From a virus: DNA of 21,825 bases. Position 1 is the stretch's first letter; every line of letters begins with the position of its first letter. The notes beneath the pieces were generated by a model, which was not told the DNA's origin, did no database searches, and was given only the letters and a program-made list of their open reading frames with translations. A program made the translations under genes and the position numbers. Location of the stretch: IMG/VR virus record IMGVR_UViG_3300017917_003357, positions 1 to 21,825 of that record; one strand, 5' to 3'. Below are positions 4,133 to 20,152 of the stretch, piece by piece.

Positions 4133-4858
4133 ATGGCAATATCCAAAAGCATGGATTCGCCTTTAAAAAAATCTAACTACGCATCTAAAGTAGAAGAGTC
4201 ACAAACGCAACCAGAGACCAATGCCCTTACCTTCCTACCAGTTCCTGGACCACAAGGTGAAAAAGGCCCTAAAGGGGACACAGGGGCAAAAGGAGAACAA
4301 GGTTTGCAGGGACCACAAGGAGAAAAAGGGGATCCAGGGAAAAATGGTAAAAATGGCAAAGATGGAAAAAGCATTTTATCTCCATCAGAACAGATGCTTG
4401 GATGGGGTTATTATGAATCCAAAAATCCAAAGCAAATAAGAACAGGAATTGATAAAGGTGAAGACGGTTGGGTAAGCCTAAAGCTTTTTGATATTTTAGG
4501 AGATACTAATGAACAATATTTGCCAATTGGAAATGTATCTCTTTGGAATAAAACAACAGACAGAATAAACCTAAAAACACTCAACACTGGAGCTATTGTA
4601 ACAATTTGTTATAATATTTTATTGAGCACATACCTAACAAATACTGAGGTTTGGTTTAAAACTTTTGTGGGTGATGATCTTGCCTCTCCAGTTTCATATG
4701 TAGGAAATTTAAAATATCAATATGACTATGAGTTTACCGTTGAGCAAAAAATATTTGTCAAAGATGAAAAAATTAATGTATTTGGGGCAATTCCACAAAT
4801 AAGAACGGACAACTCTTGTGAGGCTGTCCTAAGATCAATTTTTATTTCTGTTGGATAA
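4133..4858 (+). CDS. Collagen-like fibre protein (241 aa)
   Basis: Residues 39-80 are fourteen uninterrupted Gly-X-Y triplets, beginning GPQGEKGPKGDTGAKG and turning Lys/Asn-rich (GKNGKNGKDGK) at the end. Charged X and Y residues are typical of bacterial and phage collagens, which can form triple helices without hydroxyproline. Pro occupies the Y position only once (GDP). The N-terminal 38 residues probably anchor to the virion. The C-terminal 160 residues are a beta-rich globular domain ending VLRSIFISVG, likely a trimerising C1q-like head. The gene follows the baseplate-type protein and the miniprotein and ends at a bidirectional terminator. A receptor-binding or decoration role is inferred. 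Confidence 0.75.
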   Translation: MAISKSMDSPLKKSNYASKVEESQTQPETNALTFLPVPGPQGEKGPKGDTGAKGEQGLQGPQGEKGDPGKNGKNGKDGKSILSPSEQMLGWGYYESKNPKQIRTGIDKGEDGWVSLKLFDILGDTNEQYLPIGNVSLWNKTTDRINLKTLNTGAIVTICYNILLSTYLTNTEVWFKTFVGDDLASPVSYVGNLKYQYDYEFTVEQKIFVKDEKINVFGAIPQIRTDNSCEAVLRSIFISVG

Positions 4859-9837: not shown

Positions 9838-12411
9838 ATGTCAACAAGAATGCAACAGCGTAGAGGAACTGCTTCACAGTGGATTTCTACAAACTCAGGT
9901 AACGGACCAATCCTAGCTGCTGGAGAAATTGGTTTTGAGTCAGACACTAATAAATTTAAGATTGGTGACGGAATCAATCACTGGGTAGACCTTGTTTACT
10001 TTACAGACGTAGAATCTGCTTTGGGTGCGATTTCAGGTCTTGTTGATGGTGCTCCAGGACTTCTTAACACTCTCAATGAAATTGCAGCAGCAATTAATGA
10101 CGACCCAAATTTCTTCTCAACAGTTTCAACAAACCTTTCTAACCATGCTTCAGATACAACAAATATTCACGGCATTGCAAATACTGCAGACCTTGCAACA
10201 CAGCAGTATGTTGACGATGCAGTTGGAAATGCAGAGGTAGACCAATCAACACTCGCTGGAACAGGTCTTGCTTGGAATATTTCTACAGGACAATTTGATG
10301 TTGATTCAACCATTGCTACAAAAACCTATGCAGATACAGCTGCATCAAATGCAGTTGCTGAAATTGTAGACTCAGCACCAGGAGCTCTTAATACCCTTAA
10401 CGAATTGGCAGCAGCAATTAATGATGATGCTTCTTATGCAGCTACAATTACTACTGCCCTTGGAAATAAAGCCCCACTAAATAACCCTACATTTACGGGT
10501 ACTGTTGATGTTACTGGAGCACAAATTACTGGTGTTGCAAACCCAGTAGCAGATTCTGATGCAGTAAATAAAGCATATATGATAACAACTGGTAATACAG
10601 CACTTAACTTGCATAATGAAGCTACAACAAATGTTCACGGAATATCAGATACAGAAAATCTAGTTTACACAAATGACGGTAGATTATCAGACCAAAGAAC
10701 GCCAGTTGATGACTCAGTTTCTGCACCTAAAATTCAAGACAGTGCTGTAACTACTAATAAAATTGCAAACTCAAATGTTACAAAAGATAAGATTGCAGAT
10801 TTAGCAGTAGAAACAGATAAAATCAATAGCTCAGCTGTAACAGAGGCCAAGATAGCAAATAATGCAGTCACCACTGATAAAATTGCAGACTCAAACGTGA
10901 CAGAGGCTAAGATTAATACAGGTGCAGTAACTGCTGACAAAATTGGATCATCTGCTGTAACTGAAGGAAAGATTGCAACAAGTGCAGTATCTGAATCTAA
11001 GATAGCTACAGGAGCTATTGTTGATTCAAAGATTGCAACTGCAGCAGATATTGCACAATCAAAGATTAAAGATTTGGTTTCAGATCTTGCTGCTAAGGCA
11101 ACAGATGCAGACCTAGATGCACACACAGGAGCAACAACTTCAGTACATGGAATTGCAAATACAGCAGACCTTGCTACGAATACGTATGCAGATACAGCAG
11201 CTTCTAGCGCAGTATCAACACACAACTCAGATACAACATCTGTTCATGGAATTACAGATACATCGCTTCTTGTTACAACAACAGGAACAGAGACTCTTTC
11301 TAATAAAACTATTGCAGATCCAACTATTTTAGTTGGTCAATCACCTTCTCAAGTTAGTATTTCTGCAACTGAAATTGGATACCTTGACGGTGTAACTTCT
11401 GCCATTCAGACACAATTAGACGCAAAGGCTTCATCGTCAGACTTGTCAGATCACAACTCAGACACCACATCTGTGCATGGAATTTCTGATACATCACAAC
11501 TTGCTTACAAGAATGCTGCAGACCAAACCTTTACTGGTAACATGGAAATTGACGGAAACCTAGTTGTTGACGGAGACTTTACTGTAAATGGTACAAATTT
11601 TGCAGCATCTGCAACATCTATTACAATTGAAGATAACATGGTTCAGCTTGCTCATCAAAATGCAGGTAACACAGTAGACCTAGGTCTTGTGGTTGCTTAC
11701 AATGATGGTGCAGCAAAGCATGCAGGTATTGTAAGAGATGTATCTGCTAATAAATGGAAGCTTTTTAGAGGAGTTACAACAGAGCCTTCAACTACAGTTG
11801 ATTTTACACAGGGATCACTTGATGACCTTGAAGTTGCTGAAATTATGGCATCATCTATTACAGTAGGAGATGTTTCAAATACTGAGTTTAGCTACTTAAA
11901 TGGTGTAACTTCTGCAATTCAGACACAGCTTGACGCTAAGCTTGCATCTTCAACAGCTGCATCTACATACGAAACAATATCAAATGTAGACCTAAAGGCT
12001 CCAAAGGCAGATCCAACATTTACAGGTACTGTAACCGTAGGATCTTCTGGAATCGCATTTTCTGATAAGACACAGACAAAAGCTGGAGTACCATCACTTA
12101 CTACAATTGCAACAGCTGTTTCATCAAGCACAACACTTGATGCACTTGGAACAGATGCATACGTAAGAGACTCGCTTGTTCCTCTATCAGGAGCAGTAAA
12201 CATCAGCTTTGAAGCAACAGGAAATGCTAAGTACGCAATAGGTTCTTCAATCAACTTCTATCAGTCATCAGGTACTGGTGCAAATATTACTGGAGACGGA
12301 ATAACAATTCTTTCAACACCAGGTTCAACACTAAGAACAACATATTCGTCAGTTACAGCTACTAAGGTTGCTTCAACAACATGGTTGTTAGCTGGAGACT
12401 TAAAAGCATAA
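9838..12411 (+). CDS. Long tail-fibre protein with Mtd-like N-terminus (857 aa)
   Basis: The N-terminus (RMQQRRGTASQW, then LAAGEIGFESDTNKFKIGDG, about residues 4-45) is the classic Mtd-type N-terminal domain that anchors phage fibres. Two copies of an APG.LNTLNE.AAAINDD module follow. Residues about 302-410 are ten decapeptide repeats of the form SAVTxxKIAx. Later come two YL(D/N)GVTSAIQTQLDAK modules and a domain DGDFTVNGTNFAASATSITI, followed by VRDVSANKWKLF, also common in phage fibres. The protein shares the LSNKT and HGI modules with the 843-aa fibre. No catalytic residues are seen. Together the two giant fibres imply a complex or alternative adsorption apparatus. Confidence 0.85.
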   Translation: MSTRMQQRRGTASQWISTNSGNGPILAAGEIGFESDTNKFKIGDGINHWVDLVYFTDVESALGAISGLVDGAPGLLNTLNEIAAAINDDPNFFSTVSTNLSNHASDTTNIHGIANTADLATQQYVDDAVGNAEVDQSTLAGTGLAWNISTGQFDVDSTIATKTYADTAASNAVAEIVDSAPGALNTLNELAAAINDDASYAATITTALGNKAPLNNPTFTGTVDVTGAQITGVANPVADSDAVNKAYMITTGNTALNLHNEATTNVHGISDTENLVYTNDGRLSDQRTPVDDSVSAPKIQDSAVTTNKIANSNVTKDKIADLAVETDKINSSAVTEAKIANNAVTTDKIADSNVTEAKINTGAVTADKIGSSAVTEGKIATSAVSESKIATGAIVDSKIATAADIAQSKIKDLVSDLAAKATDADLDAHTGATTSVHGIANTADLATNTYADTAASSAVSTHNSDTTSVHGITDTSLLVTTTGTETLSNKTIADPTILVGQSPSQVSISATEIGYLDGVTSAIQTQLDAKASSSDLSDHNSDTTSVHGISDTSQLAYKNAADQTFTGNMEIDGNLVVDGDFTVNGTNFAASATSITIEDNMVQLAHQNAGNTVDLGLVVAYNDGAAKHAGIVRDVSANKWKLFRGVTTEPSTTVDFTQGSLDDLEVAEIMASSITVGDVSNTEFSYLNGVTSAIQTQLDAKLASSTAASTYETISNVDLKAPKADPTFTGTVTVGSSGIAFSDKTQTKAGVPSLTTIATAVSSSTTLDALGTDAYVRDSLVPLSGAVNISFEATGNAKYAIGSSINFYQSSGTGANITGDGITILSTPGSTLRTTYSSVTATKVASTTWLLAGDLKA
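10741..11040 (+). repeat. Ten tandem 30-bp units coding SAVTxxKIAx decapeptides
   Basis: Unit register is fixed by the VTxxKI core (examples: SAVTEAKIAN, NAVTTDKIAD, GAVTADKIGS). DNA copies differ mostly at third positions, so the protein repeat is selected rather than freshly duplicated. It probably forms a regular beta-helix or shaft segment. Confidence 0.8.
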
Positions 12412-12427
12412 ATAAAGGGGATACATA

Positions 12428-13678
12428 ATGTCAAAAGGTATAGGTAGAAGAGCTTCAGCACAGGATAACTTTATTGGGCCAAATGCTCCAACTAACTTAA
12501 CTGCTACTAATGATCCAGCTAATCGTCCATATAATAATGGAAAAATTAATTTATCTTGGACTGCTCCTGCATCTGGAAATACTCCAACAGGATATAAGGT
12601 TTTTCGTGGTGGCACTGAAATTACAACGGTATCGTATGGAACAAATAGTTATTCAGATACTGGTTTAAACTCAGATACTCAATATACCTATGTTGTTAAG
12701 GCATATGATGATTATGCATCTAGCGCAGACTCTAATTCAGCATCTGCAACAGCGACTACGGTTCCAGCAACAATGACAGCCCCATCAGCTACAGCTGGAG
12801 TTGATAAAGATACAATTACATATACACAACCATCTACTGGTGGATCTGCAATTACAACATACAGATGGGAAAGTAATGATTCAAAAACTGGAACATCAGC
12901 TAGCACTTCTGTTGATATTGCACAAGAAGCAAATACAGCTCAAACATATCGTGTAAGAGCTGAAAATGCAAATGGTGTTGGAGAATGGTCTTCTTATTCA
13001 AACTCAGTAACAACACAGGCTCCAAGCTTCTTTGGACCACCAAGTTTCTTTGGTCCCCCAGGATTCTTTGGACCACCTGATTTTTTTGGTCCTCCAGGAT
13101 TCTTTGGCCCACCAGGGTTCTTTGGACCACCAGGGTTCTTTGGACCACCTGACTTCTTTGGCCCACCAGGTTTTAGTGGAAAGTCTTTAGGTGCAACAAC
13201 ATTGATTAAGACTCCAACTGGAACTGTTTCTGCTCAACAAATTTCTGTAGGAGATGAAGTTTTGGGGTTAAGAATACCAGGTGTTCCAGATGACTTTGCA
13301 ATGAATATTTCTGAAGCTCCTACTGATTTTCAGTATAACTTTACACAAGAACAGATAAACAATGCAGAAGAGACAGTTGTAACTGTTGTAGGAAAAGCTA
13401 TTCATGAATCACCTGGAGCAGTAGTGGTAAATTCAGATATATACTCTACAAGACACTGGGTATTAGTAAAGCGAGAAGAAAATATTATTCTTATAAACGC
13501 TATTGCAATTCAAGAAGGAGACTTAATCTATAACTATGATAGCAAAGATTTTTCTCCAATTGAAATATTTACGGTAGATACTAATACATGGATATCTGTA
13601 TACTCAATTAACGTAGAACCACAAGATTTTTATTTTACAGAAAGTGGTTTGACGTTTGATGGAAGTCCAACAGCATAG
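12428..13678 (+). CDS. Fibre/adhesin-like protein: Fn3-Fn3-(GPP/xFF repeat)-Hint-like domain (416 aa)
   Basis: Residues about 16-110 and 115-195 are two fibronectin type III domains ([23 protein letters not shown] in the first, [15 protein letters not shown] in the second). Residues 200-247 are eight hexapeptides xFFGPP, which in triplet register read GPP-GFF or GPP-DFF, a collagen-like Gly-X-Y pattern with Pro in X and Y. From residue 253 to the end is a Hint-like domain: [11 protein letters not shown], then SVGDEVLG, then an STRH motif (His343), [12 protein letters not shown], and [13 protein letters not shown]. Hint domains catalyse N-to-S/O acyl shifts and self-cleavage; here the first residue would be Ser253, and the usual C-terminal His-Asn is replaced by FDG, so splicing is not expected. 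AAAGGGGAT precedes the start. Confidence 0.75.
13025..13168 (+). repeat. Eight 18-bp units coding xFFGPP (collagen-like GPP triplets)
   Basis: Units begin AGC, AGT, GGA, GAT, GGA, GGG, GGG and GAC. Codons for Phe, Gly and Pro vary at third positions between units, so the repeat is protein-level. The variable first residue is Gly (4 times), Ser (2) or Asp (2), which restores Gly-X-Y periodicity in half of the units. Confidence 0.85.
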
Positions 13679-13732
13679 AACATGTCTAGCATTATAAACT
13701 TTATTAATAATTAATAATTTTGTATTTTGGGG

Positions 13733-14302
13733 GTGAGCAAAATAAAAATATATATTGGTGAAGAAAAAGAAGAAAAGCTTTTAGAGCCATACCTTTTTTA
13801 TTCTGAAATACCACAAAAAGCTTTAGATGCTAAGCTTTGGTTTCATCATTCCTTGATCTTTGATGAAGAGACAGGGATAAAGTTATTAGTCTCTACCTAT
13901 AAGAGCAGTGATGACAACAATAATTCTTATCCTCCAGGAACTATTGTAGTTTCTAATAAAATATATAATGAGTTCCCAGTAACACAAAGTCTATGGACTA
14001 TGGAAAATTGCATAAATAGAGGCTATGTAGACTTAAAATATAGAAAAAAATCTTTTACTTTTTACACCATTACAATCAATGATATGCTTTCAAGAGCACT
14101 AGACGTTGACGTTAAAACGTATATATATGCAAGCGGAGGAGTTACAGAACTTGGTTCTGAGATAGTTAACAAGGTTTTTGATCTTAATATATCTAATAAA
14201 GAAGTTGAAGTAGTAGATGATATTTTTCAGTTTAGAAATTATATGTTTCCAATAGCTTATATGGAAAAGAGGTTAGCTTATGTTGAAGACTATTCCAAGT
14301 AA
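13733..14302 (+). CDS. Unknown protein at the head of the dioxygenase cassette (189 aa)
   Basis: I do not recognise a family. The protein mixes short strands and helices (KIKIYIGEEKEEKLLEPY, LWFHHSLIFDEETGIKLLVS, SFTFYTITINDMLSRAL), is soluble-looking, and has no metal ligand triad. GTG at 13733 is chosen; an in-frame TTG at 13727 is an alternative. Neither has a well-spaced ribosome-binding site: the GGGGG run directly abuts the GTG. The last 23 bases overlap the next gene. By position it belongs with the cassette and could be a fibre chaperone or cassette-specific partner, but that is only a guess. Confidence 0.5.
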   Translation: MSKIKIYIGEEKEEKLLEPYLFYSEIPQKALDAKLWFHHSLIFDEETGIKLLVSTYKSSDDNNNSYPPGTIVVSNKIYNEFPVTQSLWTMENCINRGYVDLKYRKKSFTFYTITINDMLSRALDVDVKTYIYASGGVTELGSEIVNKVFDLNISNKEVEVVDDIFQFRNYMFPIAYMEKRLAYVEDYSK

Positions 14303-14861
14303 AACAAAATATTTGCATTCAAGCATAGATATGCCAAATAATTTTTTATCATCTTTAAATGGATTTGACTCAAAAGATGATAGAATTTTCATCATTAAAA
14401 ATGATGCTCTTACAGAAAAAGATTTAGTTGTTAATAAAACAAAAAACATTTTTTTAGTATATACAGATGAAATGTTTTTGCTTTATCAAAATATCTCTAA
14501 TCTGCTAAAAGATGCCTGCAACATGTATAGCATAGATACAACAAAGCAAAAATATTTTATTTATGGAAAAGTTGTGCAGTACTCTTTAGAAACAAATAAC
14601 CATTGGTATGATTTTCCAGGAATTAATAAACCATTTCTTCACGGCTTTTATTTTATAGACGGTCAAGCTGAAATATTTTTTCAAAACAACGATAAAATAG
14701 AATCAAAAGTCATAAAACAAAACGACATTATAATCAACAAACCTACTGATTTAATTAAGATAAAAACAGATTCTACAATAAATGTTGTTGAATTTTATAT
14801 AGCTCCAACATATATGCTTAAGTACAATCAGCCAGGTGTATGGTGTCCAATCTTAGTATGA
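14280..14861 (+). CDS. Degenerate dioxygenase-like (cupin-fold) protein lacking iron ligands (193 aa)
   Basis: The C-terminal half, LHGFYFIDGQAEIFF, then VIKQNDIIINKPTDL, then VVEFYIAP, follows the strand order of the double-stranded beta-helix core in the neighbouring dioxygenases (Y-L-N-x-x-x-G-E-L-x-F, then x-P-x-x-G-x-L-x-x-F-P). The HxD motif, the distal His before PV, and the 2-oxoglutarate-binding Lys or Arg are not found. It is thus either a cupin-fold binding protein or a pseudoenzyme of the array. It overlaps the previous gene by 23 nt. Its TGA stop forms part of the next promoter. Homology is inferred from pattern and position only. Confidence 0.5.
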   Translation: MLKTIPSKTKYLHSSIDMPNNFLSSLNGFDSKDDRIFIIKNDALTEKDLVVNKTKNIFLVYTDEMFLLYQNISNLLKDACNMYSIDTTKQKYFIYGKVVQYSLETNNHWYDFPGINKPFLHGFYFIDGQAEIFFQNNDKIESKVIKQNDIIINKPTDLIKIKTDSTINVVEFYIAPTYMLKYNQPGVWCPILV

Positions 14862-14867
14862 TATAAT
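14859..14867 (+). promoter_or_regulatory. Extended -10 promoter TGATATAAT of the dioxygenase operon
   Basis: The TG is part of the TGA stop codon of the preceding gene. The box ends 18 nt before the ATG at 14886, and AAAAGGGGA provides a ribosome-binding site. The next eight genes overlap or lie within 1 nt of each other, so this is the likely driver of the whole cassette to 20152. Confidence 0.65.
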
Positions 14868-14885
14868 ATTTAAAAAGGGGAGTAT

Positions 14886-15584
14886 ATGTTAGAAAATGCA
14901 GAATACCTAGCAACTGGAATAATGGTTTACAGAAATGTATTTAGTCCAGAGAAAAAGTATATTGAGCGACTAGAAGACATTCTTGGAAAAGCTGATGGCT
15001 CAAGATATGGCTGGAAGCCAAGCTATACAGGCTATGGTGCAAGAAACACAAAATATAGAGATTGTTCTGATTTTAAAGTTAAATATAACTCAAACGGATC
15101 TCTTTCTACTCATGCAGATGTAATCCAGAAAGAGAACTTTACTGAGACAGACAAAGAGTTAGTAAGACTTTGGGAAGATGCTTATTACGATCAATTAAAA
15201 CCAGTTGATGACTATAGAAATTTATTTAGTATGGCACCTCTAAAATACTGGGAGTCTTTTAATTTTATTAAATATGGTCCAGACCAACATTTTCAGATAC
15301 ACTCAGACCATGGATATTCCTACACTTGTGTGCTTTCTTTGGTGGGATACTTAAATGATGATTATGAGGGTGGCGAGTTGTACTTTGACAAACTAAATCT
15401 TAAGATTAAGCCAAAAGCTGGAGATCTATATTTGTTCCCATCTTCTTATGTATATTCTCATGCAGCAATGCCAGTAACTTCTGGAACAAAGTATTCTCTT
15501 GTAACAATGCTTGATTATCTAGAAACTGCTCATACTCCAGAATACAGAAACTTAGAGGAAAAGTACTCAAAAGGTCTTTTGTAA
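14886..15584 (+). CDS. 2-oxoglutarate/Fe(II) dioxygenase, prolyl-4-hydroxylase type (232 aa)
   Basis: The iron triad is visible as His139-x-Asp141 (QIHSDHG) and His192 (YSHAAMPV), with Lys202 (GTKYSL) ten residues after the distal His for 2-oxoglutarate. Lys at this position is the collagen prolyl-4-hydroxylase form; many bacterial and phage relatives have Arg. The core YLNDDYEGGELYF and KPKAGDLYLFPS matches the family exactly. The enzyme would hydroxylate a substrate using O2 and 2-oxoglutarate, producing succinate and CO2, in the cytoplasm. It is the first gene after the cassette promoter and is coupled to the next gene by TAATG. Substrate is not shown; fibre prolines are one possibility, small molecules another. 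Confidence 0.88.
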   Translation: MLENAEYLATGIMVYRNVFSPEKKYIERLEDILGKADGSRYGWKPSYTGYGARNTKYRDCSDFKVKYNSNGSLSTHADVIQKENFTETDKELVRLWEDAYYDQLKPVDDYRNLFSMAPLKYWESFNFIKYGPDQHFQIHSDHGYSYTCVLSLVGYLNDDYEGGELYFDKLNLKIKPKAGDLYLFPSSYVYSHAAMPVTSGTKYSLVTMLDYLETAHTPEYRNLEEKYSKGLL

Positions 15585-16279
15585 TGTATACAATTTCTGC
15601 ATATAGAATAAACAACTATTGCGATATTAAACAGTCATCTGTAAAACGTAAGTGGATGGATGAAACTTATGAAAGACATGCATATCACTGCTTTCCTGTA
15701 TCTTTAACAAATAGCCTTGGCTGGAGCATATCTTTTCCTGAAGACATATCTTTTGTTTGGAGCGGAATATCTGACTCAAATAAAGAAAATGTTAAGATAT
15801 TGAATGGGGAAAAGTATGTTTCTAATGCAAGGGCTAATGCAACATTAAGTTTTAATACAGGTATTATCTTTGAAACAGATGAAACTTTAAGCATGATGGC
15901 TATTCCAGTCCCAAACGAGTTTAATCCAGATTTTCAAATTTTTACAACAATTATGACTTCTTCTTTTTTTGCTGGGGAGTTTCCAATTGTAGCCAGAATT
16001 CTTTCACCAAACAAAGTAATAACAATTAAAGCGGGCACTCCTGTAGCAAACATAATTCCTGTATCACTTACAGAGTTACAAAATTCTGAAATTGTTTTTA
16101 AGCGAAAAAGAACAAAAAAAGAACCACCCTGTAATCCAGTTCACGGAGCACAAGTAAGAAAAGAAATTTTAGATTCTGGAAAATGGACAAATTTTTATAG
16201 GGATGCAATTAATCCATGTGGGGATAAAATTGGCAGCCATGAAGTAAAAGCAATAAGACTAGGAGTAAGAGAAGAATGA
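15584..16279 (+). CDS. DUF6065-like protein, copy 1 (231 aa)
   Basis: The run RKWMDETYERHAYHCFPV (about residues 22-39), then SLGWSISFP and FVWSGIS, follows the pattern of DUF6065 proteins (R-W-M-D, a clustered A-Y-x-C-x-P, G-W, then W-x-G). Near residue 160 ITIKAGTPVANIIPVSLTEL gives the family's late G-x-P-x-x-x-I-x-P strand. The C-terminus carries an EPPCNPVHG segment. The function of DUF6065 is unknown. The beta-rich layout suggests a jelly-roll or cupin-like fold. The start overlaps the stop of the dioxygenase, and the next gene is a diverged second copy. Placement between dioxygenases suggests a partner or substrate-handling role. Confidence 0.6.
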   Translation: MYTISAYRINNYCDIKQSSVKRKWMDETYERHAYHCFPVSLTNSLGWSISFPEDISFVWSGISDSNKENVKILNGEKYVSNARANATLSFNTGIIFETDETLSMMAIPVPNEFNPDFQIFTTIMTSSFFAGEFPIVARILSPNKVITIKAGTPVANIIPVSLTELQNSEIVFKRKRTKKEPPCNPVHGAQVRKEILDSGKWTNFYRDAINPCGDKIGSHEVKAIRLGVREE

Positions 16280-16995
16280 GTATTATAAGTTTTCATTCAC
16301 ATCAAAGATATAATGATGAAGGGACCATTAACGATCCATCTCCAGCTAAGTCTTTTGTTCCTAGATGGTTTGCTTCAGCAGACAGACACTGGAAAGATCC
16401 TCATGGCAATATAATGAAAAACTCTTATGGTGGAGAATCTTTATCGTTTAAGTCATGTCCAGCTCTTTTAGATATCTTCACAGCAGGATATGTTTTAAAA
16501 ACACCGTGTGATATTAATTTTGTGGAAATTGACGGAGTAATAGTTCCACAAGTTGATGAAAGTTACGAAGGCTTTTGTGAGATACGTGGAGAAATGCCAG
16601 GATTAGAAGTTCCTTATGGGCATAGCAAAACAGGCTATCACTGGTATCCAAACTGGGGTATTGGATTGCCTGAAGGCTATAGTGCTTTATGCATGAACCC
16701 AATAAACCATTTTGAACTACCGTTCATTACTATGTCAGGAATAATAGATAGCGATAGAACAAACACACCAGGACTGCTTCCCTTTTTTATAAGAGAAGGA
16801 TTTACTGGCAAAATTAGTGCAGGCACTCCTTACTTGCAAATCATTCCCATTAAGAGGGAAGACTGGTCTATGGATAAGGTATACTATACATATGCTGGTA
16901 TCCTTAATAGGCACCAAAAACAAGCAAATGATTTTAGAGTCCCAGAAGGCGGGGCCTATAAAAAAAGATTTTGGCAAAGAAAGAGGTATGAATAA
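16276..16995 (+). CDS. DUF6065-like protein, copy 2 (239 aa)
   Basis: It shares with the preceding gene the order of a Trp-rich N-terminal part (VPRWFASADRHWKD), an ALLDIF helix, a central strand HFELPFITMSGIIDSD, and the late motif GKISAGTPYLQIIPIKRE, which aligns with KAGTPVANIIPV. Identity outside these blocks is low, so the copies are old. Several His, Asp and Glu residues exist but no clear metal triad. Overlap with copy 1 is ATGA and with the next dioxygenase TAATG. The two copies are always co-oriented here and may act together as a heteromer; that is inference. Confidence 0.55.
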   Translation: MSIISFHSHQRYNDEGTINDPSPAKSFVPRWFASADRHWKDPHGNIMKNSYGGESLSFKSCPALLDIFTAGYVLKTPCDINFVEIDGVIVPQVDESYEGFCEIRGEMPGLEVPYGHSKTGYHWYPNWGIGLPEGYSALCMNPINHFELPFITMSGIIDSDRTNTPGLLPFFIREGFTGKISAGTPYLQIIPIKREDWSMDKVYYTYAGILNRHQKQANDFRVPEGGAYKKRFWQRKRYE

Positions 16996-17696
16996 TGAAG
17001 CATGACACAAGCATGAACATGGCTAATTTTAATGCAAAGTCAATAACCCCTTCTGGATTTTTTGGCAACTCAGAGAAAAATATTGTAGAAGTAGAAAATT
17101 TTTTGACACAAGAAGAGATAGATATTCTTGTAGAATTTTCAAAGAAAAATTCTTCATTTGATGTGAATAAAACTGAATACAATGAAAATGGAACTTTAAT
17201 TTATGACGATAATGTGTGGGTAAATAGAGTTGCTACAACAGAAACGTTGTCTAAGACTGGACCAGAGATACTAGTATTAATAGAAAACATTATCAAAAGA
17301 TTTCAACTAATAATAGAAGACTTTTTTGAGGTAAAGGTGATTCCTACAGGACCAGCCCTTGTTAGATGGCCAGTAGGAGCCAGACAAGAGCCACACGCAG
17401 ACAAAGAACTGCACGAAGGTCCAGATGCTGGAACAGCAAATGCTTTTCCTTGGTACGATCTAGGAACAGTTTTTTATCTAAATGATGATTATGAGGGGGG
17501 AGAATTATACTTTCCTCAACATGGAATTGAATTTAAACCAAAGCCTGGAGCAGGATATTTCTTTCCAGGAGATATGAACTATATACATGGAGTAAGACCA
17601 ATAATTTCTGGATGTAGGTATACCTCTCCAGTATTTTGGACAATTTCAAAGCTTCCAGAAAAATGGATGGGACCAAAGGAGATAAAAAATGTTTGA
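16995..17696 (+). CDS. 2-oxoglutarate/Fe(II) dioxygenase, prolyl-4-hydroxylase type (233 aa)
   Basis: After an N-terminal helix-rich part (VENFLTQEEIDILVEF, residues about 34-49) typical of prolyl-4-hydroxylases, the metal site is His134-x-Asp136 (PHADKE) and His198 (YIHGVRPI), with Arg208 (GCRYTS) for 2-oxoglutarate. The core YLNDDYEGGELYFPQHG and KPKPGAGYFFPG is nearly identical in style to the gene at 14886. All catalytic positions are present, so it is predicted active. It overlaps the preceding gene by TAATG and the next by 8 nt, with a good AAAGGAGAT ribosome-binding site for the latter within its 3' end. The substrate is unknown. Confidence 0.9.
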   Translation: MKHDTSMNMANFNAKSITPSGFFGNSEKNIVEVENFLTQEEIDILVEFSKKNSSFDVNKTEYNENGTLIYDDNVWVNRVATTETLSKTGPEILVLIENIIKRFQLIIEDFFEVKVIPTGPALVRWPVGARQEPHADKELHEGPDAGTANAFPWYDLGTVFYLNDDYEGGELYFPQHGIEFKPKPGAGYFFPGDMNYIHGVRPIISGCRYTSPVFWTISKLPEKWMGPKEIKNV

Positions 17697-18408
17697 TGCT
17701 ATTAAGCACAAAGATCAATGCTTTACTATTGAAAACTTTATGACACCAGAAGAATGTAAGAGTGTAATTGAGTATCTTGAATGGCAAAATGAAAAAAATA
17801 TTCTAACATGGAATCAGATTTCTTTTTATGACTCTTATGCTGTTGGTTTTTGGCCTATAGACCCAAGCTTATTGATGTTTGGTTTACAACCAAATTATTT
17901 TCACGAAATATTAAAGCCAAGAATTAAAATGGCTGCACAGCAGGTAATGGAAAGAGAGCTTTCCGAAGTAAGCTATCATGCTCAAAAGTGGATTGACGGG
18001 GCCTTTGCATCGTTCCATTCCGATAACTCAGATGAAGATGGAAACCCTACTACTTTTGAAAAAAGTAAGTTTGCTGCCTTTATTTATTTAAATGAAGATT
18101 TTGAAGGAGGGTTTCTAAACTTTAAGCATTATCCAATTACAGTAAAGCCAAAGATTGGAACAATAGCAATTTTTGCTGGTGGACACACCAATGAGCATGA
18201 GGTTACAATGGTTCACGGAGGCACAAGATATACTATTGGTTCTTTTTGGGATAATGCAAATTCAACCTATGATGAAGATAGAAAAAAGCAAATGAAAGAA
18301 GAGCTAAGAGCTATTCGTGAAAAACAAGATCTTGAATATAAAAAGTGGGCTGAAGAAAAAGCAGCTGGAATTAAACCTGTGTACATTGGAAAAAATGGTG
18401 AGGTTTAA
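17689..18408 (+). CDS. 2-oxoglutarate/Fe(II) dioxygenase with C-terminal charged tail (239 aa)
   Basis: The N-terminal FTIENFMTPEECKSVIEYL is the usual prolyl-4-hydroxylase entry helix. Ligands are His110-x-Asp112 (FHSDNSDEDG), His170 (NEHEVTMV) and Arg180 (GTRYTI). The core YLNEDFEGGFLNF and KPKIGTIAIFAG fits the family. Beyond the catalytic domain is a highly charged helical tail (about residues 190-232, KQMKEELRAIREKQDLEYKK) not seen in the other copies; it may be a coiled coil for partner or substrate binding. Predicted active. The start overlaps its upstream neighbour, and the stop overlaps the next start (TAATG). Confidence 0.9.
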   Translation: MFDAIKHKDQCFTIENFMTPEECKSVIEYLEWQNEKNILTWNQISFYDSYAVGFWPIDPSLLMFGLQPNYFHEILKPRIKMAAQQVMERELSEVSYHAQKWIDGAFASFHSDNSDEDGNPTTFEKSKFAAFIYLNEDFEGGFLNFKHYPITVKPKIGTIAIFAGGHTNEHEVTMVHGGTRYTIGSFWDNANSTYDEDRKKQMKEELRAIREKQDLEYKKWAEEKAAGIKPVYIGKNGEV

Positions 18409-18992
18409 TGCAGCTAAATCCAGAGCATTTGGATAAAAGAATAATTTATTACAAAGAAATTATTTCTAATCCAAATGAAGTTATAGAGTATTTTGAGAGC
18501 ATTGATCAGACTTCCTGGGATGACTGGATCTCTAGTGACAACACTAACATAAGGCATGGATTTAGCAAACGAGTGTCTTATTTAGATTTAGATGGCAAGA
18601 ATGAAAACTTGTCATTAATATCTAGCTCAATAAAAAATGCCATAACTTCAGCAACTGAATATTATAGGTCAAAAATTGAAACAAAGGCTGTTGATGTTCC
18701 AAACTTTTTTGATATTAAAAAATATACAGACGGAGCTGACATGGGTACACACACAGACTCAGAAGATGATTCAGATAAAAAGCATCCAGTTCTTTCTGCT
18801 GTTCTATATTTAAATAATAATTATGGCGACGGAGAAATTGAATTTATTAAGCAAGGAATAAAAATAAAGCCAGAACCAGGAAGCCTAATACTTTTCCCAT
18901 CTGTCCCACCGTATTACCATAGACCAATACCAGTAACATATGGAACAAAGTATATGGTTCCATTTTTCTTGTATGAGAAGGGAGCATTTTAA
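18408..18992 (+). CDS. 2-oxoglutarate/Fe(II) dioxygenase (194 aa)
   Basis: This is a shorter copy. Metal ligands are His115-x-Asp117 (GTHTDSED) and His171 (YYHRPIPV), with Lys181 (GTKYMV) ten residues later, as in the gene at 14886. The core YLNNNYGDGEIEFIKQG followed by KPEPGSLILFPS is well conserved. The N-terminal 100 residues carry an IIYYKEIISNPNEVIEYF helix in place of the longer prolyl-hydroxylase lead. Predicted active. The Lys-type pocket pairs it with the 14886 enzyme, whereas the 16995 and 17689 copies use Arg. It ends one base before the next start. Confidence 0.88.
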   Translation: MQLNPEHLDKRIIYYKEIISNPNEVIEYFESIDQTSWDDWISSDNTNIRHGFSKRVSYLDLDGKNENLSLISSSIKNAITSATEYYRSKIETKAVDVPNFFDIKKYTDGADMGTHTDSEDDSDKKHPVLSAVLYLNNNYGDGEIEFIKQGIKIKPEPGSLILFPSVPPYYHRPIPVTYGTKYMVPFFLYEKGAF

Positions 18993-18993
18993 A

Positions 18994-19587
18994 ATGATGT
19001 TTTATGGAGCAAAAATTAAAGATAATTGTTTTTATTTTATTAAGACACTATCTGAAAATAAAAGCCTAGTTAAGTTTATAGATGAGATGGAGAATGATTC
19101 ATCATCGTATCAAATGATCCCGTCGTGGGAAAAACTTGACGGTGCCTTTAAAAAACCTCTTTACAAAAATAATAAATCTGATAACACTCGTGTTTATCAA
19201 AAATCACTATACATAATAAATAGTGTGGATAGTGGGGTTAGATATTGCTTAAACTTGTTCTGTGAAAATTCAGACTTTGATACTTTTGACATGAAAGATA
19301 TTTCTTTATACAAGATTGATTCACCTAGAGAAAAAGACATAATAAAAGAATTAGAAAGAAAAGAAGACGACCTGTACTCTGCTTATATGTTTATCAACAA
19401 TGAGCCAGGGAAGATTGAAATATTGTTCCCTAGAAATGGTCAAGCTTTTACTATAGACGAGTCTAGTATTTTTGTTGTTTCCAACAAAGAAGAAGTTCAA
19501 ATTAAATATTTTTCAGATCAGCCTTTGTATATGTCAAAAGCAAATGTTGACTTTAAAAATAAAGGGGTAGAGGATCAAAATGTATGA
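18994..19587 (+). CDS. Degenerate dioxygenase paralogue without metal ligands (197 aa)
   Basis: Start at 18994 is preferred because GGGAG lies about 10 nt upstream and the previous stop is at 18992; a frame extension to 18940 would overlap the upstream gene heavily. The N-terminus (IKDNCFYFIKTLSENKSLVKFI) resembles the entry helix of the active copies. GKIEILFPRNGQAFTIDESSIFVVSN aligns with GEIEFIKQGIKIKPEPGSLILFPS of the 18408 enzyme. HxD and the distal His are absent (the equivalent positions read SPREKD and YFSDQPLYM). It is probably a non-catalytic relative, perhaps a scaffold or heteromer partner. Overlap with the next gene is 8 nt. Confidence 0.6.
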   Translation: MMFYGAKIKDNCFYFIKTLSENKSLVKFIDEMENDSSSYQMIPSWEKLDGAFKKPLYKNNKSDNTRVYQKSLYIINSVDSGVRYCLNLFCENSDFDTFDMKDISLYKIDSPREKDIIKELERKEDDLYSAYMFINNEPGKIEILFPRNGQAFTIDESSIFVVSNKEEVQIKYFSDQPLYMSKANVDFKNKGVEDQNV

Positions 19588-20152
19588 GATAAAGGTAAAG
19601 GATCCCGTAGTAAAAAGTAACATATTTAATGATGAATATTTTAATCAAATTAAAGAATACTTTGCAAACCATGATATTTTAAAGCAAGAAGAGTACCATT
19701 ACTATGGAAGCAAAAGAGTAGACTCTTACACTGACCCACTATTAGATGAAATACAGAAAATGCTAATGCCCATGGCTAAAGAGGTATTTCAGTCAGAAAC
19801 CCTTCTTCCCACATATGCAGTATTTTCAGAGTACTCTGGACCAACTGCGTATTTAGATAAGCACAGGGACGTTGGCCCATGTACCTACACTATAGATATA
19901 TGCCTTTATAAGGGTGCTGACTGGCCTTTGTTTATTGAAGACAAAGAATATAACTGGGGACCAAACGAAGGTATATTCTTTTATGCAAATGATCAAGACC
20001 ATTGGAAAGAAGATTTTCCAGAAAAAGATAATAATAAGGTTGGGCTATTATTTTTACACTATGTAGAGCCAGACCATAAGTGGTGGTCAGTTCCAGAAAA
20101 GATGCGTCCGTTGTTAAGAAACAACATAAAACATATTAAAAAAGATAGTTAG
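19580..20152 (+). CDS. Divergent 2-oxoglutarate/Fe(II) dioxygenase-like protein (190 aa)
   Basis: Likely iron ligands are His95-x-Asp97 (DKHRDVGP) and His141 (DQDHWKED). The 2-oxoglutarate-binding basic residue is less certain: a Lys lies 12 residues after His141 rather than ten. The core differs from the other copies: YTIDICLYKGADWPLFI, EYNWGPNEGIFFYAND, then KVGLLFLHYVEPDHKWW. This pattern is seen in small phage dioxygenases that are not classical prolyl hydroxylases. The protein closes the cassette; its stop is followed by about 140 nt without genes before the reductase. Substrate unknown. Confidence 0.75.
   Translation: MYEIKVKDPVVKSNIFNDEYFNQIKEYFANHDILKQEEYHYYGSKRVDSYTDPLLDEIQKMLMPMAKEVFQSETLLPTYAVFSEYSGPTAYLDKHRDVGPCTYTIDICLYKGADWPLFIEDKEYNWGPNEGIFFYANDQDHWKEDFPEKDNNKVGLLFLHYVEPDHKWWSVPEKMRPLLRNNIKHIKKDS

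Follow-up and report, generated by a model that had tools for sequence, protein, structure and literature searches.

A phage oxygenase cassette covaries with the FFxPP repeat of a neighbouring tail fibre and is its probable modifier

Introduction

2-Oxoglutarate (2OG)-Fe(II) oxygenases are among the commonest unexplained extra genes in aquatic phages, in which they are usually labelled metabolic. In algae and plants, prolyl 4-hydroxylases (P4Hs) act on (Ser-Pro)n and other proline-rich cell-wall repeats, for which no collagen Gly-X-Y sequence is needed. Cyanophage S-SCSM1 carries 24 copies of 2OG-Fe(II) oxygenases (PMC9602691), and a study of the Baltic virome, which mentions collagen in viral tail fibres, states that the use of viral P4H ‘remains cryptic’ (PMC9301287). 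Our search of the literature, which left most subscription-journal full text outside its scope, returned no cassette of several oxygenases linked to a repeat protein of a phage. Here we analyse a stretch of viral DNA of 21,825 nucleotides (IMG/VR record IMGVR_UViG_3300017917_003357, positions 1 to 21,825; hereafter the window), in which a tail-fibre gene with a tandem FFxPP repeat (12428-13678) is followed by a run of oxygenase genes. We propose, with a probability of roughly 0.7, that the region 14886-20152 is a dedicated protein-modification cassette whose P4H-type oxygenases hydroxylate FFxPP repeats in the tail fibres of the same phage.

A repeat fibre followed by an oxygenase cassette

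Several tail-fibre genes precede the 416-amino-acid repeat fibre in the 21.8-kb window, and downstream of it a tight run of genes on the same strand extends to 20152, followed by a class II ribonucleotide reductase (RNR). The fibre, its repeat and the cassette are laid out as follows (ORF, open reading frame; TRF, tandem-repeat search).

12428-13678, + strand: repeat fibre with N-terminal fn3 domain(s), eight FFGPP[SGD] units and a C-terminal Hint domain (Pfam fn3, 5e-7; TRF; relatives)
13028-13173, + strand: 18-bp tandem repeat coding FFGPPx hexapeptides, the proposed substrate of the cassette (TRF: period 18, 8.1 copies, score 173)
14886-15584, + strand: oxygenase A, P4H-like, with H139, D141, H192 and K202 (PF13640, 3e-15)
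15584-16279, + strand: DUF6065 protein a, cassette core (PF19541, 5e-24; in relatives, too, lies between A and B)
16276-16995, + strand: DUF6065-like protein b (phrog_7084, 5e-30)
16995-17696, + strand: oxygenase B, with HAD, the distal His and Arg at +10 (PF13640, 4e-6)
17689-18408, + strand: oxygenase C, with HSD, the distal His and Arg at +10 (PF13640, 6e-10)
18408-18992, + strand: oxygenase D, with HTD, the distal His and Lys at +10 (PF13640, 3e-10)
18994-19587, + strand: degenerate paralogue of oxygenase D without Fe ligands, possible ORF start at 18940 (oxygenase-D profile, E 1e-12)
19580-20152, + strand: divergent oxygenase-like gene E, with an HRD motif (phrog_2954, 1e-11; phrog_3531, 7e-7)

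A preliminary description made from the sequence had counted five dioxygenase genes with complete or near-complete Fe(II) ligands, in an operon starting 1.2 kb after the fibre. The distance and the shared strand are confirmed, and four of the genes, with all Fe ligands and a Lys or Arg at +10, pass the cut-off of 27 bits for the Pfam family 2OG-FeII_Oxy_3 (PF13640). The fifth, gene E, has its HRD motif and PHROG matches only: it has no Pfam 2OG match and falls outside the profiles of oxygenases A-D, tblastn and a viral scan gave no relatives of it, and weak homologues are present in a few cassettes. In the degenerate paralogue of oxygenase D the ligand columns read D, I, gap and L; this protein is perhaps a substrate-binding or regulatory subunit.

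The fibre has 41 relatives at 38-67% identity. In most of them the hexapeptide reads FF[A/S/G/T/V]PP[G/S/N/R...], with FFxPP as the invariant part, and the repeat is flanked by the fn3 domains on one side and, in many cases, by an intein-like Hint domain on the other. A Megablast search of phages with the window gave zero matches, and none of the INPHARED cultured phages matched the fibre protein. In 257 Gb of genome_contigs the FFxPP pattern gave 11 matches, all short or of low complexity and with no fibre-like ORF recognised, which rules out FFxPP as a common bacterial motif.

Repeat and cassette occur together

FFxPP loci with enough sequence share one gene order on one strand, namely fibre, oxygenase A, DUF6065, an optional second DUF6065, and oxygenases B, C and D, with extra paralogues in some. 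We tabulated loci selected by their fibre that have at least 4.5 kb of 3′ sequence (n = 56), having sought negatives by searching with fibres that carry an FTPFG repeat. The FFxPP repeat and the cassette were both present in 31 and both absent in 25, with no exceptions. The number of 2OG genes in this fibre-selected set was at least five in cassette loci with room for them and 0-2 in the others. Taking loci from all sources, 81 have both, 25 have neither, and one, L133, combines a cassette with a divergent FFPPSFPFFPP repeat. The preliminary description had offered a lack of co-occurrence among relatives as grounds for giving up its proposal; the co-occurrence is strict, and independent scans agree.

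The 25 fibres without a cassette carry FTPFGF, FSPFRVFG, FTPYAF or FVPYSF-type repeats at the same place in the same scaffold. On the upstream side, the fibre gene at 9838-12411 has relatives in 35/35 cassette loci and 21/21 no-cassette loci with room for it. On the downstream side, RNR starts 0.9-2.4 kb past the fibre in 23/25 no-cassette loci and 6.2-13.3 kb past it in cassette loci with RNR in reach. Because the flanking fibre gene and RNR are common to both groups and the spacing differs, the cassette behaves as one block, which some loci have between fibre and RNR and others lack.

Searches from the opposite direction gave a similar picture. Among loci found by oxygenase A alone, 58/59 have an upstream ORF with an FF/YF-P repeat, the remaining one being L133 with its mixed repeat. 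A scan for DNA coding three FFxPP units, made without regard to scaffold or cassette, yielded 96 distinct ORFs, 68 of which have at least 2.2 kb of 3′ sequence; a 2OG gene lies no more than 2.5 kb downstream of 60 of these 68, and a DUF6065 gene lies within 3 kb of 58. Of the eight without a close 2OG gene, six come from records that have 3-13 2OG genes at other places, and the other two are short fragments. Chance, or a generic abundance of 2OG genes, was rejected as an explanation: records that lack the cassette, the longest of which is 113 kb, have 0-5 such genes, none arranged as this cassette beside the fibre.

Oxygenase A resembles protein prolyl hydroxylases

Oxygenase A keeps HxD...H plus Lys at +10 in 197/197 sequences, and at least 583 matches to it are present in IMG/VR; oxygenase B keeps its motif in 161/163 relatives, with Arg at +10; and the residue ten places after the distal His is mostly Arg in oxygenase C and mostly Lys in oxygenase D. 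When a profile built from 40 oxygenase A sequences was searched against the PDB, the top match was Bacillus P4H (4e-7). The AlphaFold2 (AF2) model of oxygenase A has a predicted local distance difference test (pLDDT) score of 94, and its nearest folds in Foldseek are, at 1e-9 to 6e-9, Chlamydomonas P4H (1e-9; including the (Ser-Pro)5 complex), the EF-Tu-bound P4H of Pseudomonas putida and PBCV-1 vCPH, with the HIF PHDs also close. These nearest-fold enzymes all hydroxylate proline in proteins. Oxygenase C has a weak NCBIfam match (4e-5) to YhhC, an oxygenase of ribosomally synthesized and post-translationally modified peptides, a hint that not every target of the cassette need be proline.

For DUF6065 we found no sequence relative in the PDB and no paper on its function; the AF2 model of protein b (pLDDT 93) matches dUTPase/dCTP-deaminase-like folds weakly. 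DUF6065 homologues occur in about 50 records, mostly haloviruses, such as Halorubrum phage HRTV-14 (L143, 7872-8705), in which the gene is near adhesin, tail-fibre and class II RNR genes and an annotated oxygenase is absent nearby. DUF6065 is probably a fibre-associated helper, because it is found beside fibres without a cassette as well as near tail-fibre and adhesin genes of haloviruses.

The pairing extends to unrelated scaffolds

A tree built from the fn3 region of 80 fibres, with the repeat columns omitted, requires six changes of repeat type, of which at least four have good branch support. In every independent pair the cassette shifts the same way as the repeat. The repeat is found on fn3, PASTA, WVRVGG and long tail-fibre proteins, and in one genome the same repeat and C-terminus are present on two different proteins (FAPPTFGSRFIRAY). 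Where a genome has a second FFxPP protein, that protein is located away from the cassette. PASTA-type proteins come with a reduced module of oxygenase A and DUF6065, which suggests that these two form the core.

The association could also be that of a single inherited or exchanged block of DNA, with the enzymes modifying or making something else, for example a host surface glycan, a metabolite or another part of the virion. Repeat and cassette adjoin, so one recombination could move both, but second FFxPP proteins sit apart from the cassette and the fn3 scaffold and Hint domain are also found without it. Many cyanophage 2OG oxygenases are likewise of unknown role (PMC9602691), some cassettes have gained sulfotransferase-like (PF03567) and AspH-like genes, and PF11397 N-acetylglucosamine (GlcNAc) transferases occur in 7/47 cassette records versus 1/28 others. 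We nevertheless consider this explanation unlikely, and favour a functional tie over mere co-travel, because the 56 fibre-selected loci hold no exception, the pairing persists on unrelated scaffolds and in the two-gene version of the module, and second FFxPP proteins are distant.

Besides this adjacency, four observations weigh against hydroxylation of the FFxPP repeat by the cassette. Just four independent switches are supported on the tree (sign test, p 0.125). In some cassette loci, FFP/YFP-rich repeats partly replace FFxPP, and L133 has its mixed repeat, so FFxPP may not be the exact motif that the enzymes recognise. The template-modelling scores of oxygenase A to P4Hs are moderate (0.5-0.6). 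Finally, DUF6065 also occurs without the cassette, including beside the fibre in some no-cassette loci.

The conserved motif is not collagen-like

The preliminary description had seen in the fibre eight Gly-Pro-Pro triplets in collagen register, with two more collagen-like fibres upstream, and on this basis had the cassette act on the phage's own fibres. Collagen-type P4Hs stabilising a triple helix in these proteins would suit the eight GPP units, the genuinely collagen-like protein at 4133-4858 and the presence of PBCV-1 vCPH among the nearest folds. The eight FFGPP units are there, but Ser and Asp break the Gly-X-Y register (longest run, 7 triplets), and the Pfam Collagen match of the fibre is below cut-off. 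Across distinct fibres the x of FFxPP is Ala 270 times, Ser 174 times and Gly 79 times; only 4/47 fibres are mostly Gly, among them the all-Gly version in the window. The upstream protein at 4133-4858 is truly collagen-like (14 Gly-X-Y triplets; Pfam 4e-8), although a poor P4H substrate because it has a single Gly-X-Pro, whereas 1386-2216 has 4 Gly-X-Y triplets and no Gly-X-Pro. Nor do loci with the cassette show collagen-like runs more often than loci without it (10/82 versus 3/25). With Gly unconserved and these runs not enriched, we rejected the collagen triple helix as the target and judge this reading to have hardly any chance of being right. What survives of the earlier claim is that the cassette is dedicated to the neighbouring repeat fibre, on the evidence of co-occurrence; hydroxylation of the prolines is a proposal.

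The oxygenases might instead modify a different region of the fibre protein, such as the fn3 or Hint domains, which are conserved in many relatives. The same scaffold and Hint domains recur, however, in the 25 fibres without a cassette, many cassette fibres lack Hint, and it is the repeat that changes with the cassette, all of which makes such a target very improbable. The Hint domain of the window is placed as follows.

13184-13675, + strand: Hint or bacterial intein-like domain (alignment; PDB profile search)

A profile of the Hint family matched the bacterial intein-like domain 2lwy (2e-9), the cyanophage-like gp41-1 intein 6qaz (3e-7) and several other inteins in the PDB. By alignment, the window copy has Ser at position 1 and ends in FDGSPTA with no C-terminal His-Asn, and is probably not self-cleaving. 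Many relatives (for example L067, L132 and L015) have Cys1 and a C-terminal His-Asn, so that their fibre tips might undergo self-cleavage or ligation. Many other relatives end in a short tail in place of Hint, GGGGIRFY or FGSRFIRAY for example.

A model for modification of the fibre

FFxPP is the substrate that we favour, because nothing else in the fibre varies along with the cassette, because the scaffolds are replaceable and because the enzymes resemble protein prolyl hydroxylases. From the gene content, Fe ligands, fold, gene order and strict covariation we infer how the cassette would act on the repeat, at which residues, with what part for DUF6065 and to what benefit for the phage. P4H-type 2OG-Fe(II) oxygenases would hydroxylate FFxPP residues post-translationally, before or during virion assembly, the substrate in the window being the eight FFGPP units of 12428-13678. 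Oxygenase A would most likely modify one of the two prolines in PP. The other three, oxygenases B, C and D, whose sequences are distinct as far back as the module can be traced, would most likely take other positions (the second Pro, the beta carbon of Phe or Tyr, or the x residue). With DUF6065 as a helper associated with the fibre, the stretch from the fn3 domains to the tip would become a rod that is stiff, more polar and possibly further decorated.

A broader proposal, which we advance tentatively and at somewhat less than even odds, is that oxygenases and DUF6065 make up a phage-specific system for multi-site hydroxylation, one that can move between tail proteins of unrelated type and is widespread among uncultured phages. 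It would yield a densely oxidised rod, possibly glycosylated or sulfated in some phages, that serves as an adhesive or stiff tip.

Accessory genes and related clusters

Two genes separate the fibre from oxygenase A in the window.

13727-14302, + strand: accessory gene of unknown function, without Pfam or PHROG match; family in 9/58 cassette and 2/25 no-cassette loci
14280-14861, + strand: accessory gene of unknown function, by locus counts; family in 9/58 cassette and 13/25 no-cassette loci

The second lies outside the cassette core, because 13/25 no-cassette loci also have its family. Thirteen cassettes (L084, L105, L106, L227, L230, L246, L258, L270, L274, L276, L284, L288 and L289) contain, between fibre and oxygenase A, a sulfotransferase-like gene and an Asp/Asn beta-hydroxylase (AspH)-like gene (PF03567 and PF05118, respectively, on representatives). 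The same interval holds, in 25 cassette loci, an ORF family that weakly matches DUF6171 (for example L316, 2565-3254); a small Cys-rich DUF6171 protein is encoded at 105-320 on the − strand of the window.

A PF11397 GlcNAc transferase is carried by the cassette phages L347 (11786-12790), L075, L048 and L228. The founding member of this family glycosylates the hydroxyproline of Skp1. As a core part of the cassette the transferase was not convincing, given its presence in 7/47 versus 1/28 records.

Second clusters of 2OG oxygenases, with no repeat protein adjoining, are present at G011:C1:16.7-22.0 kb and G013:C1:15.0-19.3 kb (L345, L346), and also hold a DUF6065 gene, a sulfotransferase-like gene and peroxidase-like genes.

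Comparison with known systems

If the proposal is true, a large subset of the oxygenases of aquatic phages gains a concrete protein substrate encoded next door, and a phage virion protein is modified by the phage's own multi-enzyme cassette. This would be a prokaryotic parallel to the hydroxyproline-rich structural proteins of eukaryotes and would supply protein engineering with several enzymes paired with their substrates. In kind, the hydroxylation of structural repeats in proteins is already known; there is a fair chance that the cassette is distinct beyond that.

PBCV-1 vCPH (PDB 5c5t) is, like oxygenase A, a virus-encoded enzyme of the P4H fold and is among its nearest structures. It is, however, a single enzyme of an algal virus, whereas the cassette has several paralogues in conserved order beside their proposed substrate; vCPH is not known to be tied to a neighbouring structural repeat. 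The best fold match, Chlamydomonas P4H-1 (PDB 2jig/3gze; 1e-9), is a eukaryotic secretory enzyme, whereas the cassette would act on FFxPP in the fibre of a phage. The bacterial P4Hs of P. putida (4iw3) and Bacillus (5v7y), the latter the best sequence relative of oxygenase A with a structure, are similarly small enzymes acting on a protein (EF-Tu) in the bacterial cytoplasm, but each is one enzyme with a cellular target. The 2OG-Fe(II) oxygenases of cyanophages belong to the same PHROG family (PHROG_61) and likewise come in several copies per phage, but they are annotated as metabolic, and the best tblastn matches are ~25-43% identical over partial length.

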